Shown here piece by piece: positions 16,215 through 24,937 of a stretch of DNA of 24,950 bases. A program made the position numbers and the translations under genes. The DNA is from a virus: positions 1 to 24,950 of IMG/VR virus record IMGVR_UViG_3300020147_000024; one strand, given 5' to 3'. The first letter of the stretch is position 1, and each line of letters starts with the position of its first letter. The notes below the pieces were generated by a model. That model made no database searches, was not told the DNA's origin, and saw only the letters and a program-made list of their open reading frames with translations.

Positions 16215-16943
16215 TTATCCTTTAAGAAAATCGTCGCCGTACATTTCAGTCTTCTTCAAAATCTCGTTCTGGACTCTGGGAGACCAATAGGTGCGGGGAT
16301 CAGACTTGCGAAGGCTTTCATAGTCCTTCAGGGTTCTGAACGAGCCAGTAGCCTTAGGAGCTTCCACAGTTGATGTGGGAGTCGGTACGTAAGTGTCTTT
16401 CTTCGCACCCTCCACTCCAACCATCTTAAAGAATGCTTTAGGATTGGTTGCAGCAAGGTTGTTCAGAAAGTCCGTACCTACCTCAAGCTCAGACGCTTTG
16501 GCAGCGAGAACCTTAGAGAAGTCAGAACCCCACTCCTTAGCCAGGGTGTTCTTCACCGTAGCGAGGTTAGTGGCGGCAGCCGTTTTCTTCTGTTCTTGTG
16601 TTAATGTCTCACGAATGAGACTCTGGATATCTTCTGGTTTAAGCTTGGTACCCTGATCCTCAGTGCTTGGTACCTTAGGTGCGGCACCTGCATCGGTCGA
16701 AGGCTTGGCGTTTTGTCTTTCCAAGAACTCTTCGAGAGTAATCCGTGTTTCCAAATCTTTCCGAAGTCGAGCCTGTTCCTCTTTGAGAGTTTCAATGAAC
16801 TTATCAGCTTCGACCTTACCTCTTGCGAGATCGTCCACAGTCTGAAACTTCTTGCCCTCTCCAACGAGAGTTTCCAGGTAATTCACGTCCCCACTCGGGG
16901 TACCGGGGTCACCGGCAGTGTCGTCAAAAAGTCCGTCGGTCAT
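16215..16943 (-). CDS. Scaffolding protein
   Basis: A 242-residue, highly charged, helical protein directly upstream of the major capsid gene and downstream of the portal, the standard slot for scaffold. It starts with an acidic, disordered segment (MTDGLFDDTAGDPGTPSGD). A coiled-coil region follows (VEADKFIETLKEEQARLRKD), then a proline/threonine-rich linker, a second helical block (LIRETLTQEQKKTAAATNLA) and a basic C-terminal end (NEILKKTEMYGDDFLKG) of the kind that contacts capsid protein. AAGGA lies 5 bases before the ATG, which overlaps the previous stop as TAATG. Scaffolds guide procapsid assembly and then leave. Sequence conservation is low in this class, so position and composition carry the call. 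Confidence 0.8.
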   Translation of the reverse strand: MTDGLFDDTAGDPGTPSGDVNYLETLVGEGKKFQTVDDLARGKVEADKFIETLKEEQARLRKDLETRITLEEFLERQNAKPSTDAGAAPKVPSTEDQGTKLKPEDIQSLIRETLTQEQKKTAAATNLATVKNTLAKEWGSDFSKVLAAKASELEVGTDFLNNLAATNPKAFFKMVGVEGAKKDTYVPTPTSTVEAPKATGSFRTLKDYESLRKSDPRTYWSPRVQNEILKKTEMYGDDFLKG

Positions 16944-17218
16944 TACGTTCCTTTTCGTGTAAAGTCTAACAGTGCAATGATGTTCATGAGAACTCGCCTC
17001 ATACCATTCACGTCAGCTTGTTTATAAGCCCAGTTAGGAGAGTCATAAACGTCTGACTTAACTTCCGAACGATCAAGGGCTGTGAGTTTCTCTTCCAATA
17101 TCTCCCGGAGTCGTCCAAGAGATATCGTGCTATTACGTAGCAACTTTTCAAAGTCTTCTTTGGCAGATTTATCTTTTAGATGTTTGGTCCACTCTACGGA
17201 TAAATTACGATTTGCCAT
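16943..17218 (-). CDS. Small helical hypothetical protein, 91 aa
   Basis: A basic, mostly helical protein: SVEWTKHLKDKSAKEDFEKL, then LGRLREILEEKL, an NWAYKQADVNGMRRVLMNII segment and a FTRKGT end. The PNWAYKQA..NG pattern recurs in small phage proteins of unknown function that I have seen, but no role is assigned. It is coupled at both ends by TAATG to portal and scaffold, so its expression tracks head assembly. It may be a packaging or portal-associated factor, by location only. Confidence 0.7.
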   Translation of the reverse strand: MANRNLSVEWTKHLKDKSAKEDFEKLLRNSTISLGRLREILEEKLTALDRSEVKSDVYDSPNWAYKQADVNGMRRVLMNIIALLDFTRKGT

Positions 17219-19074
17219 TATACTCCTTCAGGCGGAAGTCCCGGCTGCGTAGGCGCTCCTTGCGGTGGCCCTACACCCTCCATTGCTTCCATTGTATCAG
17301 CGTCATCAGGGAATAGACCCGATGGCGTCATTGTCTCCATAGCGATACGCTCCATATAGAGGTTCACCATTTGCTGACCTTCAGCCTCCTCAGCCAACCG
17401 GATATAGGGCTGGACCAGAGGACGATCACCGAAGTCAAGCAGATCACTTAACATTCTTGCTGTTTCGACAGAGCTGATGTGTTGGAGAACAGCAGGGTCT
17501 GCCTGAAGAACCGAGGTGTAAAGACCTTGCAGGTTCTGTAGTTGCGTAGCTTTCTCCGCAAAGTTACGTGCAGCGATTGGACGAATACGACCGTTACCCG
17601 TGATTTCTTGGACCGTAAGGCTCGTAAAGGTAGCCACGTCCAGCTCATCATCGAAGATACGAATTGTCGTCTGCGTCATATTCCGACGAGCCAATTCCAA
17701 CATTGCGTTTAGAAGAGGCTCTAAAATGTCACGCTCGAACTGAGCGATCTTGTTCTGGAAGATACGTGCGGCAGCGTTCTCCAAGCGTTGCACTTCGTAT
17801 GCCGTTTTCTCACCCGGTGTACGGAAACCCATCGCTTCCTTCGGGGAGCCTGCCATCTCTTCCATCTTCATTTCCAAGAGGACGATCTGGTTGTCAGCAT
17901 TCAAAGCCTGCACGTCAGGCGACATGACTTCCACGTCACCATCATCACCAGTGTAAATACGTTCGAAGGGACCCCAATCGAAATCCTCGACATAACCCTT
18001 GACTTTTAGAGGGGGATATGCGATAAGATCGAAGACGTCTGCCTTCATATTCTCCAAGTGGTCGATACGATATTGCATACCAACCAGATTATCCAACGGA
18101 CCCATCGCCCAGAGATTATCTTGACGGATACGCCACCCGGCGTGGTAGATTGGGGGCTTTCCAAAGAAGGACGGATGTGGTCTATCTGCTATAACTTTGT
18201 GACGGTCCGCAACGACGATCATACGGTTCCGCTTAAATTCGCCGGAGTGCTCGTCGTAGATGTCACCGTAAAAGGTCAAGAGTTCGCAATAACCGGACTG
18301 GAGGTAGTGTTTGAAGTTATCGAACCCACTGATCCGGTAGATTTCATCTTTAACTGCGACATTACCGGGAAAGTCAGAGACGTGGTGACGAACACGCGTT
18401 AGATACTCGTAGATAGCCGCAGCATCTTCCTTATCGTGTTGATCGCCTGAGAGACGCTCCATGATCTCCCGAACTTCTCCTATACTCACCAAGCTCCGAA
18501 AAATCTTGGGTGAGTCTTCAAAATGCGGAGAAGTCGGGTTCAGGACCATGTCCAAGGGGTTAAGTCTTTTGATGGCTGGACCAACATATCCAACCTTGAC
18601 TTTACCCTCATTCGGTAGTTCCTGCGTCTCATCAACCCACTCGACCGTGGCAGTAGTGTTGCCCAGGTCGATGTAATCCAATACGAGCTTGCCGACCGTA
18701 GTATAGAACCTAGGACGATCAACGACCCAGGCCATGTAACTCTCGATAGCCTTGCGCTTCTCGGGGGACTCGTCAGCTTCGCTGAGGCCCTCCCAGACCA
18801 TCCACTTCCTACGGGGGAAGAGAGAGGCCATGTAGTTAGCGTAAAGGTTATCCCTGATCTGGCAGAGCTTCGGGATAGTGGTCTTGTTCGACCACGGCAA
18901 CTTCGAGTTGCTTGTTTTGGTTGTATCGGTTGCGAAGATGTACTTCATAATTTCCATCTTCTCAGTAACCCAATCCTGGCGTCGCATATCCCAGTCGATG
19001 TATCGCTCTGAGATTACACACCCCAATTGATCGGGTGTTATGAAGTCTTCAATCTGGAGTACATTACCGGTCAT
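17218..19074 (-). CDS. Portal protein (head-tail connector)
   Basis: A 618-residue protein matching podoviral portals in length and in its segments. These include an N-terminal helical region (SERYIDWDMRRQDWVTEKME), IPKLCQIRDNLYANYMASLF followed by PRRKWMVWEG, a core GNTTATVEWVDE, NPLDMVLNPTSPHFEDSPK, and a clip/stem region around GMQYRIDHLENMKADVFDLI. A long C-terminal segment with AMGFRTPGEKTAYEVQRLEN (the conserved FRTPGEKTAYEV-type motif) follows, and then a low-complexity proline/glycine tail. The dodecamer forms the DNA entry pore, binds terminase and later the adaptor. AAGG lies 6 bases before the ATG; the start and stop both overlap neighbours as TAATG. Terminase, portal, scaffold and capsid follow in the order expected for a head module. 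Confidence 0.9.
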   Translation of the reverse strand: MTGNVLQIEDFITPDQLGCVISERYIDWDMRRQDWVTEKMEIMKYIFATDTTKTSNSKLPWSNKTTIPKLCQIRDNLYANYMASLFPRRKWMVWEGLSEADESPEKRKAIESYMAWVVDRPRFYTTVGKLVLDYIDLGNTTATVEWVDETQELPNEGKVKVGYVGPAIKRLNPLDMVLNPTSPHFEDSPKIFRSLVSIGEVREIMERLSGDQHDKEDAAAIYEYLTRVRHHVSDFPGNVAVKDEIYRISGFDNFKHYLQSGYCELLTFYGDIYDEHSGEFKRNRMIVVADRHKVIADRPHPSFFGKPPIYHAGWRIRQDNLWAMGPLDNLVGMQYRIDHLENMKADVFDLIAYPPLKVKGYVEDFDWGPFERIYTGDDGDVEVMSPDVQALNADNQIVLLEMKMEEMAGSPKEAMGFRTPGEKTAYEVQRLENAAARIFQNKIAQFERDILEPLLNAMLELARRNMTQTTIRIFDDELDVATFTSLTVQEITGNGRIRPIAARNFAEKATQLQNLQGLYTSVLQADPAVLQHISSVETARMLSDLLDFGDRPLVQPYIRLAEEAEGQQMVNLYMERIAMETMTPSGLFPDDADTMEAMEGVGPPQGAPTQPGLPPEGV

Positions 19075-19301: not shown

Positions 19302-19534
19302 TAGCGTCCCCTCTTGCTTTTCTTGTGAGTGGAGGAACGACCCATGATTTCGTCAGTACGAGCTTCATAGGCTACAGTTCTTCGCTCAGCGGCAGCATAA
19401 CCTGGAATGTTCTTCCCCGGAGGATTAATATCGTCCTCAGAGGCTACGTGAGGGTTCTTAGAAGTTTTCTTTCCAGAGTTTGATCGCTGCATTGAACCCA
19501 CTGAAGGGGCATGATTGTCGGCATTGTAAGGCAT
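19301..19534 (-). CDS. Small basic protein, paralogue of its downstream neighbour, 77 aa
   Basis: The 77-residue protein starts MPYNADNHAPSVGSMQR, then a Ser/Lys/Asn-rich stretch, an acidic patch (SEDDINPPGKN), a helix (YAAAERRTVAYEARTDEIM) and a strongly basic end (STHKKSKRGR). It carries the NADxxAPSVGS motif of the next gene. A GGAGGGG site lies about 7 bases before the ATG, and the ATG overlaps the large terminase stop as TAATG. The basic tail could bind DNA or the acidic surface of a packaging component; this is inference. No database family is known to me. Confidence 0.7.
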   Translation of the reverse strand: MPYNADNHAPSVGSMQRSNSGKKTSKNPHVASEDDINPPGKNIPGYAAAERRTVAYEARTDEIMGRSSTHKKSKRGR

Positions 19535-21087
19535 TAGGATACCCCTCCAAATCTTGAATGAAAGTATTGCATGTAGTCCTTGTGACCGGTCTTAGAAATG
19601 TTACCCATACCAGCCGAAGGAGGTACACAGATTTCAACACATGAAGCCAAAGAGTCCTTTATATCATCATGAGGAGGCTTCGAGAGAACCAATTCCTCTT
19701 CCAATGTTTGACAGTTTCCGCCTTTATAATGCCACATCTGTCGATTGGAGTACCTTGGTTGTAGCGTGGCTTCCACTCGTTCTTCTTTTGAGCCTTCTGC
19801 TCTTGACGGGCGATATTCCTCCACAGCCAAAGCCAACCCATTCGGTCGAATGTAACTGTCCTTAAGGTCTTTGACGATAACCTCTTGGGCGATAGTTACC
19901 TCAGCCCTGATTTTCCGAAAGCCCCATTTCTTATGAAGACGCAAAATTCTAGCGAAGTAATCACTGATCTTGTTGGTACGGAAGCGGTCGATGTCCAGGA
20001 CGAAATAGTTATGGTAAGCGTCGATGCCTACTACGACAATCGCAGTGTAATCAGCCGTCTGTTTCAAGCTAAATGCGAAGTCCACAGCGGCAAATACATT
20101 AAGTCGATTACCTTTGAAAAACCATTTCCCTTTATCACTGGTAAGATGTTCGGGCTCGTAGTATTGGAAATAGTCGGGAGCGATAGTAGCCGATGAAATA
20201 TCGTTTGGATTATTATAATACTGTGCTCGAAACTGAGTACGATCCAGATACTGGGCTCTTTTTTGAGCTAAGATTTTCTGATCAAAACCGAACCATTGTC
20301 CATCTGACCTTTGTTGGCGGGGCCACAAGAACTGACCTGTTCCATCTCCTCGATCCTCAACCTGACGCTCGAAAATTTCATACAGAGGCTTGCTATCTAT
20401 TAGATCGCCTTCATCCGAATAAATCTCATACACCATCTCCAAGAAGTCATTGTAAAGGTCCTTAGGATGATATCGAGTTCCGACAGCCCAGACTTGGGAG
20501 TCCGTACCTGCAATACTCGCCAGAAACGAGGCCTGTGTTTTTACACGTTGGCGTCCTTCTTCGGTATACGCATTCTCGCCAGTTACGACGTCATCCATGA
20601 CCGCGATGTCGCAGTGGAGGCCGACAATATTGGTTGTGAGGCCAGCTGTGAACACTGTGGGATCACGTACGTTCTCGCGCTTCCGGTCGGGATGGTCCAC
20701 GGAGATTTCTGACTCTGTCCACTTCTCCCGTTTGGTCTCTTCTTTGTTGACCATCTCGGGCCAATAGAAGCGGTAGATGTCCGAAGTAAGAATGTCTTTG
20801 ATGAACTTCAGCTGTTTGGTAGCGAGGTTCTGTGTGCTGGAGATGTAGAGAACACGAATGTGTGGGCGTCTAGTGATCTCCCAGGCTACACGGTAAGCAA
20901 CCAAAGCTGACTTCTGGTGGTCACGAGGAAGAAGAAGCAGCTGATGACTCAGTGCTTCCTCACTCCTCCACCACTTGATAACGTCTTTGTGAACCTGGCC
21001 AAGTACCCTACGGGGATGAACTAGGTTGATAAATGCTTCTAGATCACTTTCAGCTTGCAGTCGGATTAGGTCTTTCTTATCTGCCAC
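19534..21087 (-). CDS. terL: Terminase large subunit (packaging ATPase-nuclease)
   Basis: A 517-residue protein. The ATPase half shows a degenerate Walker A (LLLLPRDHQKSALVAY, K59 S60), Walker B HCDIAVMDDVV (D165-D166) and a motif III VGTRYHPKD (202-210). The RNase H-like nuclease has its first acidic residue at D336 (FAAVDFAFS), the second probably at E396 (IRAEVTIAQE) and the third at D475/D478 (PPHDDIKDSLA). It drives DNA into the procapsid through the portal and cuts concatemers. The start is GTG at 21087 with AGGAG 5 bases upstream; the ATG of the preceding 40-residue gene's frame runs into it with an 11-base overlap. The Walker B second acidic residue is D rather than the usual E. Confidence 0.92.
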   Translation of the reverse strand: MADKKDLIRLQAESDLEAFINLVHPRRVLGQVHKDVIKWWRSEEALSHQLLLLPRDHQKSALVAYRVAWEITRRPHIRVLYISSTQNLATKQLKFIKDILTSDIYRFYWPEMVNKEETKREKWTESEISVDHPDRKRENVRDPTVFTAGLTTNIVGLHCDIAVMDDVVTGENAYTEEGRQRVKTQASFLASIAGTDSQVWAVGTRYHPKDLYNDFLEMVYEIYSDEGDLIDSKPLYEIFERQVEDRGDGTGQFLWPRQQRSDGQWFGFDQKILAQKRAQYLDRTQFRAQYYNNPNDISSATIAPDYFQYYEPEHLTSDKGKWFFKGNRLNVFAAVDFAFSLKQTADYTAIVVVGIDAYHNYFVLDIDRFRTNKISDYFARILRLHKKWGFRKIRAEVTIAQEVIVKDLKDSYIRPNGLALAVEEYRPSRAEGSKEERVEATLQPRYSNRQMWHYKGGNCQTLEEELVLSKPPHDDIKDSLASCVEICVPPSAGMGNISKTGHKDYMQYFHSRFGGVS

Positions 21088-23056: not shown

Positions 23057-23569
23057 TCAGTTCAGTTTTAGGCGTTCAAAGTCTTCTTTGATCCGTAGCT
23101 TCGCCTCGGCAGCTAGAATATCGTCTTGTTCCTTAGTATCTTTCTTGGGGCGGCCACGCTTAGATGTCGTGGTCCCCTCCTTCTCTTTCCATCCACCCTC
23201 CGTGAGCCACTTGTTTGCGGCGAAAGAAAGTTTATGATCGCTGTTGGCAGCTGTTTCGCGGATCGACCTTAGGGTCGCCGCCCGGATTTTAAGCTCTAGC
23301 TCCTTTCGCCACCGAGTGACGTAGGGCTGGAACCAGCTGCATTCACACAGCATCTGCCAATGCTCCCACCCGTCAAGGTAGGTGTTGGCGAACTCCCACT
23401 CTGTGAGGTCCTCCATTTCCATGTAGTGGCGGTACAACGAAGGAAAGTTGAGATGATCTTCATCCTTCAGGGTGTAGAGCACACTGGATTTTTCCGCGCC
23501 GGTGGTCTCATAGAACAGACCCTTGAGGAAACGGGAACCAATAGAGCTTTTGAACTTATTGTGGGTCAA
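23057..23569 (-). CDS. terS: Putative terminase small subunit
   Basis: First gene after the strong leftward promoter. The frame opens with a TTG at 23569, the earliest possible start before an upstream in-frame stop; CTCCTT on the plus strand (AAGGAG in mRNA) at 23581-23586 gives an 11-base spacing. The 170-residue product has FPSLYRHYMEMEDLTEWEFA, aromatic clusters WEHWQMLCECSWFQPYV, a helix RWRKELELKIRAATLRSIRE, the motif FAANKWLTEGGW, and an AT-hook-like SKRGRPKK (136-143). An acidic helical C-terminus follows. The AAxKxLxxxGW-x-KRGRP layout recurs in small terminase or packaging-initiation proteins. It would recognise the packaging site and hand DNA to TerL. Assignment is moderate. Confidence 0.6.
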   Translation of the reverse strand: MTHNKFKSSIGSRFLKGLFYETTGAEKSSVLYTLKDEDHLNFPSLYRHYMEMEDLTEWEFANTYLDGWEHWQMLCECSWFQPYVTRWRKELELKIRAATLRSIRETAANSDHKLSFAANKWLTEGGWKEKEGTTTSKRGRPKKDTKEQDDILAAEAKLRIKEDFERLKLN

Positions 23570-23666: not shown

Positions 23667-23695
23667 AGTATACCACGTTTTTGACACAATGTCAA
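23667..23695 (-). promoter_or_regulatory. Strong extended sigma-70 promoter for the late operon
   Basis: On the minus strand TTGACA (23690-23695) is a perfect -35 box. After exactly 17 bases comes TATACT (23667-23672), one mismatch from TATAAT, preceded by TGG which makes an extended -10 (TGn). Transcription should start near 23660, leaving a leader of about 90 bases before terS. The direct repeat CTAATAGT (23649-23656 and 23662-23669, 13 bp apart) overlaps the -10 region and could be an operator. This promoter can account for host RNA polymerase reading the whole structural operon. Confidence 0.85.
23681..23695. promoter_or_regulatory. TTGACA-CAA-TGTCAA palindrome over the -35 box
   Basis: A perfect 6-3-6 palindrome whose right arm is the -35 box of the leftward promoter. 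Its left arm gives a TTGACA on the plus strand, but only a poor -10 (TACAAG, 18 bases on) follows there, so a rightward promoter is doubtful. A dimeric repressor or activator bound here would control the late promoter directly. Similar half-sites occur at 23752-23757 and 23775-23779. Confidence 0.55.
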
Positions 23696-23769: not shown

Positions 23770-23819
23770 GGGGGTTGACGCCCCCCCGGCCCCCCTCCCC
23801 CGGTGGCACCCCAGGGGGG
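23770..23819 (-). other. G-quadruplex-capable G-rich block
   Basis: On the minus strand four G-runs occur in order: GGGG (23809-23812), GGGGG (23797-23801), GGGGGG (23790-23795) and GGGGGGG (23781-23787), separated by 7, 1 and 2 bases. This satisfies the usual G-quadruplex rule of at least three G per run and loops of 1-7. On the plus strand GGGGG-TTGACG-CCCCC (23770-23785) and the GGGGGG at 23814-23819 allow competing hairpins. The block is unlike anything else in the window. Confidence 0.6.
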
Positions 23820-23832
23820 TCCCTTGGTGTTC

Positions 23833-23883
23833 CAAAGCACTGTGTAGTGCAGAGCACTTTGTGATGCAAAGCACTTTGTAACG
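23833..23883. repeat. Three contiguous 17-bp tandem repeats, each with a CAAAG-CA-CTTTG dyad
   Basis: Units at 23833-23849, 23850-23866 and 23867-23883 follow without gaps with consensus CARAGCACTKTGTRRYG. Each begins with a 5-2-5 dyad (perfect in the third unit: CAAAGCACTTTG), then five variable bases. The first unit also contains GCACT-GTGT-AGTGC. Regular 17-bp phasing of a dyad is typical of operator arrays, enhancer sites or replication iterons. No spacers are present, so this is not a CRISPR array. Confidence 0.8.
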
Positions 23884-23944
23884 TAGTGGACTCTAGGGCG
23901 CAAACACCCGGAGTTCTGTAGTGACCACTAAAGAATTGATATAG

Positions 23945-23979
23945 TTGGCACAATTCTTGCTAGGCAAATACCATGCCAA
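23945..23979 (+). promoter_or_regulatory. Sigma-54-like -24/-12 element inside a 35-bp bipartite palindrome
   Basis: On the plus strand TTGGCAC-AATTC-TTGCT matches the sigma-54 consensus YTGGCACG-N4-TTGCW except one base; the GG and GC are separated by exactly 10 bases, and the start site would be near 23972. The same bases form a symmetric arrangement TTGGCA-N6-TTGC-TAG-GCAA-N6-TGCCAA centred on 23962. The minus strand therefore also carries a weaker GG-N10-GC element (TTGGCAT-GGTAT-TTGC). It may be a promoter, an operator, or both. Confidence 0.5.
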
Positions 23980-24237: not shown

Positions 24238-24609
24238 ATGGCGAAAGTCATATTCCGTCCCCGCGTTAAGAGTGCGCCTAGCGACGTGCTATTGACCACG
24301 GTAGTGATCTTGCCAAACGGCAAGGCCAAGGCCATACGTCAAAAGCGTGTGCGGAAGGTGTTCAATGATCGCCCAATGGGCCTTGGCAGTGTCAAGGTAT
24401 CAGGAGGCTATCGGCAGAACGCCTATGCGGGTCAGTTTACCTCGGTCCATCATAGATGGGTCGGAGTAGATAACTTTGGCTCGCTTCCGCGCCAGCATAT
24501 CACGCCACCTAGGCCACGCCAGGATCAAGGCAAAGTCTACGGGACCAAATCCCTAGGCCGTGCACATTGTGACTGGGTTCGCGAGGGCGACGCACCGAAA
24601 GGCAAGTGA
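24238..24609 (+). CDS. Basic hypothetical protein, first gene of rightward (early) region, 123 aa
   Basis: The ATG at 24238 has AGGG about 8 bases upstream (a fair ribosome site). The product begins MAKVIFRPRVKSAPSDVLLT and is rich in arginine, lysine, glycine and proline (AKAIRQKRVRKVF; YRQNAYAGQFTSVHHRW; HITPPRPRQDQGKVYG), with no membrane span. It is strongly basic, as many early phage host-takeover or nucleic-acid-binding proteins are. It lies downstream of the sigma-54-like element and is followed after one base by another small frame. No family is recognised. An opposing minus-strand frame overlaps its start but lacks a ribosome site. Confidence 0.55.
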   Translation: MAKVIFRPRVKSAPSDVLLTTVVILPNGKAKAIRQKRVRKVFNDRPMGLGSVKVSGGYRQNAYAGQFTSVHHRWVGVDNFGSLPRQHITPPRPRQDQGKVYGTKSLGRAHCDWVREGDAPKGK

Positions 24610-24736: not shown

Positions 24737-24937
24737 GTGACTGCGAGAACACCGTTAGAGCCTTGCTCTTGCGGTGTTTCCGCTTGTCTAATTCCATCCT
24801 ATCATAGCACCTATAATCCGTTATCTAGGACGGTAAAGGGCATATGCCGGAAGGGGTGCGCTGTTGCTATAGATCGTGGTTTTAGGTGGCCTTCGGGCAG
24901 ACCCCACGCAATGCAACTGCGCTTCGGCCCCGAGTAG
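24737..24937 (+). CDS. Small cysteine-rich protein, possible zinc ribbon (Lar-like), 66 aa
   Basis: A frame from a GTG at 24737 with AGG 6-7 bases upstream. Residues 7-17 read LEPCSCGVSAC and residues 37-41 CRKGC, giving C10-x-C12 ... C37-x3-C41 plus C17, a layout reminiscent of the short phage zinc-ribbon proteins of the Lar restriction-alleviation type (LxPCPFCG...CxxCG). It differs in spacing, so the family call is tentative. It would bind metal and possibly DNA or a host protein. Its place in the early region fits an anti-host function. It ends 13 bases before the window edge, where an ATG at 24948 might start another gene. Confidence 0.45.
   Translation: MTARTPLEPCSCGVSACLIPSYHSTYNPLSRTVKGICRKGCAVAIDRGFRWPSGRPHAMQLRFGPE

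Follow-up and report, generated by a model that had tools for sequence, protein, structure and literature searches.

Opposed 16-bp sites in many unrelated tailed phages are probable upstream control elements of sigma-70 promoters

An exact 35-bp dyad in a stretch of viral DNA (the window: 24,950 nucleotides, positions 1 to 24,950 of IMG/VR record IMGVR_UViG_3300020147_000024) belongs to a family of elements found in hundreds of viral contigs. We consider it probable that the dyad is an opposed pair of binding sites for one DNA-binding protein, most likely one that would activate sigma-70 promoters in the manner of a class I activator. On that reading, the family is likely to represent previously undescribed upstream control sites in many unrelated tailed-phage lineages, and a search of the open-access literature found no description of the element. 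The preliminary description of this DNA had proposed a sigma-54 promoter. The resemblance to -24/-12 elements is real, but the phasing of the sites, their coupling to sigma-70 promoters and their orientation mean that the dyad is probably not a sigma-54 promoter. The features of the window that matter here are as follows.

19534..21087, minus strand: terminase large subunit, 61.8% identity to Celeribacter phage P12053L; phrog_38
23057..23569, minus strand: probable terminase small subunit gene, first of the late operon and upstream of the large terminase; phrog_8035 (function unknown)
23667..23695, minus strand: strong sigma-70-type promoter of the late operon, TTGACA-17-TATACT with TG, 11/12 consensus positions
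23945..23960, plus strand: forward 16-bp asymmetric site, TTGGCACAATTCTTGC, exact match to the unit TTGGCAYNNNNNTTGC
23961..23963, no strand: 3-bp spacer (facing-N3 class) separating the two facing sites
23964..23979, minus strand: facing 16-bp asymmetric site, TTGGCATGGTATTTGC, exact unit match
24238..24609, plus strand: uncharacterised ORF of 123 aa, coding status uncertain, on the far side of the control region; no PHROG match

The terminase large subunit marks the window as a Zobellviridae-like phage fragment. All structural genes run leftward from the probable terminase small subunit gene at 23569, which has homologues at the equivalent place in relatives. The dyad lies in the region of about 670 bp to the right of 23569, between the late operon and the rightward DNA. 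The same region holds a second small dyad, TTGACACAATGTCAA, at 23681-23695, which overlaps the -35 of the late-operon promoter and has the look of a possible operator. It also holds three to four tandem, iteron-like 17-bp repeats (about AAAGCACTTTGTRATGC) at 23823-23890, adjoining a C/G-rich stretch at 23781-23822.

The dyad reads TTGGCACAATTCTTGC-TAG-GCAAATACCATGCCAA with its symmetry centre at 23962, which bears out the earlier claim of a perfect 35-bp palindrome. Its pattern occurs once in the window even when up to three mismatches are allowed, and in none of 100 dinucleotide-preserving shuffles; the 16-bp site has no forward-orientation copy in the window other than 23945..23960. The match to TGGCAC-N5-TTGC on which the sigma-54 proposal was built is likewise exact, and the only exact one in the window (23946-23960, plus strand). 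The weaker element said to face it does exist as a one-mismatch copy (23964-23978, minus strand), but its deviation, T for C at position 7, is an ordinary one, C and T being about equally common there family-wide. At up to two mismatches, however, the sigma-54-like pattern gives 25 matches in the window against 18.4 expected, which is chance level. A lone match of this kind was therefore discarded as evidence, and the whole dyad is the statistically surprising object. An RNA hairpin was also rejected as a reading of the dyad: the RNA fold is no better than that of shuffles (z -1.05), and across carriers the N6 stretches show no complementarity. No known RNA families were found in the window, although positions 24743-24783, which have no Rfam match, form a very stable hairpin (z -6.6 against shuffles).

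Nearly all carriers have in common an asymmetric 16-bp unit, TTGGCAY-R-N4-TTGC(WW), in which C and T are about equally frequent at position 7, position 8 is G or A, and A or T follows the TTGC (positions 17-18, W). The unit occurs paired, in tandem or in arrays. Exact copies of the N3 dyad are present at 36 viral loci, and freeing the spacer to 0-30 bp gives at least 119 viral loci against 2 for a reversed-letter control; these scans use exact patterns and the locus counts are lower bounds. Facing spacers are usually 3-8 bp, sometimes longer and never 0-2 bp. The halves are spaced variably, and some arrays run in tandem in a single direction, which marks the asymmetric 16-mer, and not a fixed tetramer site, as the autonomous unit. 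The tetrameric operator given as the alternative in the preliminary description is excluded in that fixed form, but it came closer than the sigma-54 promoter, and its half-sites do resemble -24/-12 elements.

By shared genes the carriers fall into about 42 unrelated groups, an approximate division. Half-sites gather in one cluster per contig in 505 of 595 cases, and on near-complete contigs they are confined to one or a few intergenic clusters; the site-richest genome has 45 sites at up to one mismatch, against 0 for the control pattern. Where both neighbouring genes could be called, they are divergent in 47 cases, co-directional in 12 and convergent in none. One carrier (L292, G022) has eleven sites at 16581-17369, ten of them co-oriented, in tandem and without facing partners, between co-directional genes. 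Several long contigs (L147, L156, L091 and L134) start in or beside a site cluster, perhaps because assemblies break at repeats or because these are genome ends. The only carrier structurally related to the window is a Zobellviridae relative, L012, in which the dyad stands at the equivalent place before the terminase small subunit gene, together with two further tandem sites; TTGGCACGGTATTTGC is retained in the same position, including the spacer bases. The dyad is not essential in Zobellviridae, because all four scanned references (P12053L, SIO1, ICP2 and T5S1) lack it. Searches with proteins encoded by carriers turned up no closely related isolated phage.

The element is specific to viruses. 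A scan of GTDB (257 Gb from 85,000 bacterial and archaeal genomes) gave a single N3 dyad. It is on a 4-kb phage contig that carries terminase genes and was binned in a Rhodospirillales metagenome-assembled genome; the 4.6-Mb bin has no exact sites besides the two that make up this dyad. A site combined with a promoter, in the pattern defined below, is found in none of 399 genomes of the phylum to which this bin belongs, and a host regulon was rejected on that ground.

Neighbouring sites keep a regular distance from one another. Back-to-back gaps are 3-8, 13-18 or 24-30 bp long; 9-12 bp is never seen and 19-23 bp in a single case, and the non-redundant set is periodic at 10.5 bp (p about 2e-4). 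Such spacing is the mark of proteins in contact along one helix face. Many site pairs are too close for RNA polymerase to occupy both at the same time.

Sigma-70-like promoters, here consensus matches and not measured starts, flank the clusters outward on 116 of 616 cluster sides; the inward direction, taken as control, gives 14. In the non-redundant set the figures are 74 outward and 14 inward, and none of these promoters is closer than 26 bp to a cluster; the distance from a site to the -35 is never below about 20 bp across the family. The coupling was put to a prediction test with a pattern of one site in either orientation, 20-50 bp, and then a perfect TTGACA-N16-18-TATAAT, which returned 85 and 89 loci, whereas the reversed-letter control returned 1. 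For sites reading away from the promoter, site-promoter distances peak at 20-21, 28-34 and 37-43 bp (p about 8e-5). The sites reading toward it, a set partly diluted by background matches, show no significant phasing on their own (p about 0.13 with n=29). In the simplest carriers (L015, G003) a dyad has promoters about 31 bp off on both sides, and hence a single symmetric element can act on two divergent promoters.

These observations suggest the following mechanism. Each unit would be bound by one sequence-specific protein, and the bound proteins would line up on one helix face beside their neighbours, upstream of a sigma-70 promoter and with site centres at roughly -65 to -110 from the start. 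Their most likely effect would be to raise promoter activity in the fashion of a class I activator. Class I sites, such as those of CRP and Fis, lie upstream of the promoter in a position that leaves room for the C-terminal domain of the polymerase alpha subunit. The family sites are like them in their estimated position, in lying outside the promoter core throughout the family, in keeping helical register with the promoter (for one orientation) and in sometimes standing several in a row. They differ from CRP and Fis sites in sequence, in the pairing of an asymmetric 16-bp unit, and in being viral and missing from the sampled bacterial genomes.

In the window itself the dyad may serve the late promoter at 23695-23667, an unrecognised rightward promoter, or both, and this link between dyad and promoter is the weakest step of the explanation. 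The late promoter lies about 90 bp ahead of the terminase small subunit gene and 249 bp from the dyad. That is the nearest match of at least 10/12 in the window and falls outside the canonical class I distance; at 26-66 bp from the dyad the window has no sigma-70 promoter of even 8/12. In the relative L012, too, a promoter (TTGACA-17-TATAAT) precedes the terminase small subunit gene; it is 317 bp away from the site cluster. With good promoters at 249 and 317 bp, the activator geometry is extrapolated to the window, where one has to assume either that the dyad acts at a distance or that a rightward promoter has gone unrecognised.

The protein that reads the sites could be a host protein or an unrecognised phage protein. 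Even the most widely shared protein family, the terminase, reaches no more than 9 of the 29 near-complete carriers, and a shared phage regulator of recognised type was rejected for this reason; among 27 carriers, HTH_3 occurs in 2 and an AraC-type HTH in none. Pfam scans of two site-rich genomes found no transcription regulator except a sigma-70 region 2 match. A host factor is favoured because the carriers have no recognised phage regulator in common, and a phage factor because the arrangement is missing from the sampled bacterial genomes. Whether dozens of unrelated phage lineages share one cis-code, phased arrays of TTGGCAYR-N4-TTGC read by a single undescribed factor (an exploited host activator or a widespread phage regulator diverged beyond recognition), seems to us evenly balanced.

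A bidirectional sigma-54 promoter would have outer -24 and inner -12 elements reading both ways into early and late operons, served by host sigma-54 and a host activator. Its attraction lies in the sequence. The published consensus is YTGGCACGNNNNTTGCWNNw (PMC2848651), and Salmonella sigma-54 sites were also used for comparison (PMC3844500). Measured against YTGGCACGNNNNTTGCW, the forward copy keeps the GG-N10-GC spacing and deviates only at position 8, and the facing copy departs from it with T at position 7 and C at position 17. Family-wide, the base preferences TGGCAY-R and TTGC-W extend this likeness to positions that our pattern had left free (7 Y, 8 R, 17-18 W). Facing elements between divergent genes would also suit divergent transcription, and sigma-54 is widespread in hosts. 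Unlike sigma-54 elements, however, the family sites occur in all orientations, helically phased and packed too densely for RNA polymerase, and phased sigma-70 promoters lie downstream of them in both orientations. Beside perfect sigma-70 promoters, 47 sites point away from the promoter's gene and 29 toward it, which is not what a tandem sigma-54 promoter would predict. The dyads are also missing from the bacterial genomes scanned, apart from the one phage contig. A phage-encoded sigma-54 or activator was rejected as well: no sigma-54 gene or domain was found in 30 carrier records, and the activator domain PF00158 scored above cut-off in only 1 of 58, though a host may still supply an activator. 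Taken together, this leaves the sigma-54 promoter unlikely.

The dyads and arrays in divergent control regions, with their cooperative phasing, might also be expected of operators for a phage-encoded repressor that uses looping or cooperative binding to silence early or late promoters in cis. Classical operators overlap the promoter core, but an overlap was seen for only 12 of the 254 promoters in the vicinity of sites, which speaks against a simple repressor; the sites instead occupy activator positions, and the carriers share no repressor gene among the families counted above. We regard a repressor as quite unlikely. A replication origin, partition site or packaging site, in the form of an iteron-like array near the terminase genes, would account for the tandem arrays, the frequent single cluster per genome, often within 1-2 kb of terminase genes, and the 17-bp repeats close by in the window. 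Genomes whose early regions have many clusters, distributed gene by gene (G043, G028 and G056), weaken the packaging idea that terminase proximity had raised, the phasing with promoters would be left unexplained, and the carrier groups have no common terminase or replication genes, all of which makes such a site very unlikely.

Two further known arrangements invite comparison. Symmetric bidirectional sigma-70 promoters are palindromic control DNA between divergent genes; the family palindrome also lies between divergent genes, but upstream of the promoter cores and not inside them. CtrA sites have the motif TTAA-N7-TTAA, which is not that of the family, and no host regulon with the family motif was found. 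Promoters of Alphaproteobacteria phages with binding sites for this host master regulator nevertheless provide a precedent (PMC9437464). If the activator-site explanation is true, many unrelated uncultured phages have one regulatory element in common, independent of their structural and replication genes, and it would point to a common takeover factor and provide a tag for finding hosts and the regulator. The explanation also carries a caution: what looks like a sigma-54 element in phage DNA can be a place where something else binds. Early and divergent promoters in metagenomic phages would, on the same condition, become predictable. Among the carriers, some promoters show features of their own. 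In L327/L328 (genome G043) early genes at about 17313, 18262 and 24010 are preceded by TTGACR-N17-TARGCT, with the ATG 9-10 bases past the -10, which suggests leaderless transcripts, and the promoter modules have been duplicated from one gene to the next. In a group of large phages (L189, L192, L205, L211, L213, L237 and L239) the promoter -10 is followed by a shared conserved stretch, GTCGATATAAGAAG.
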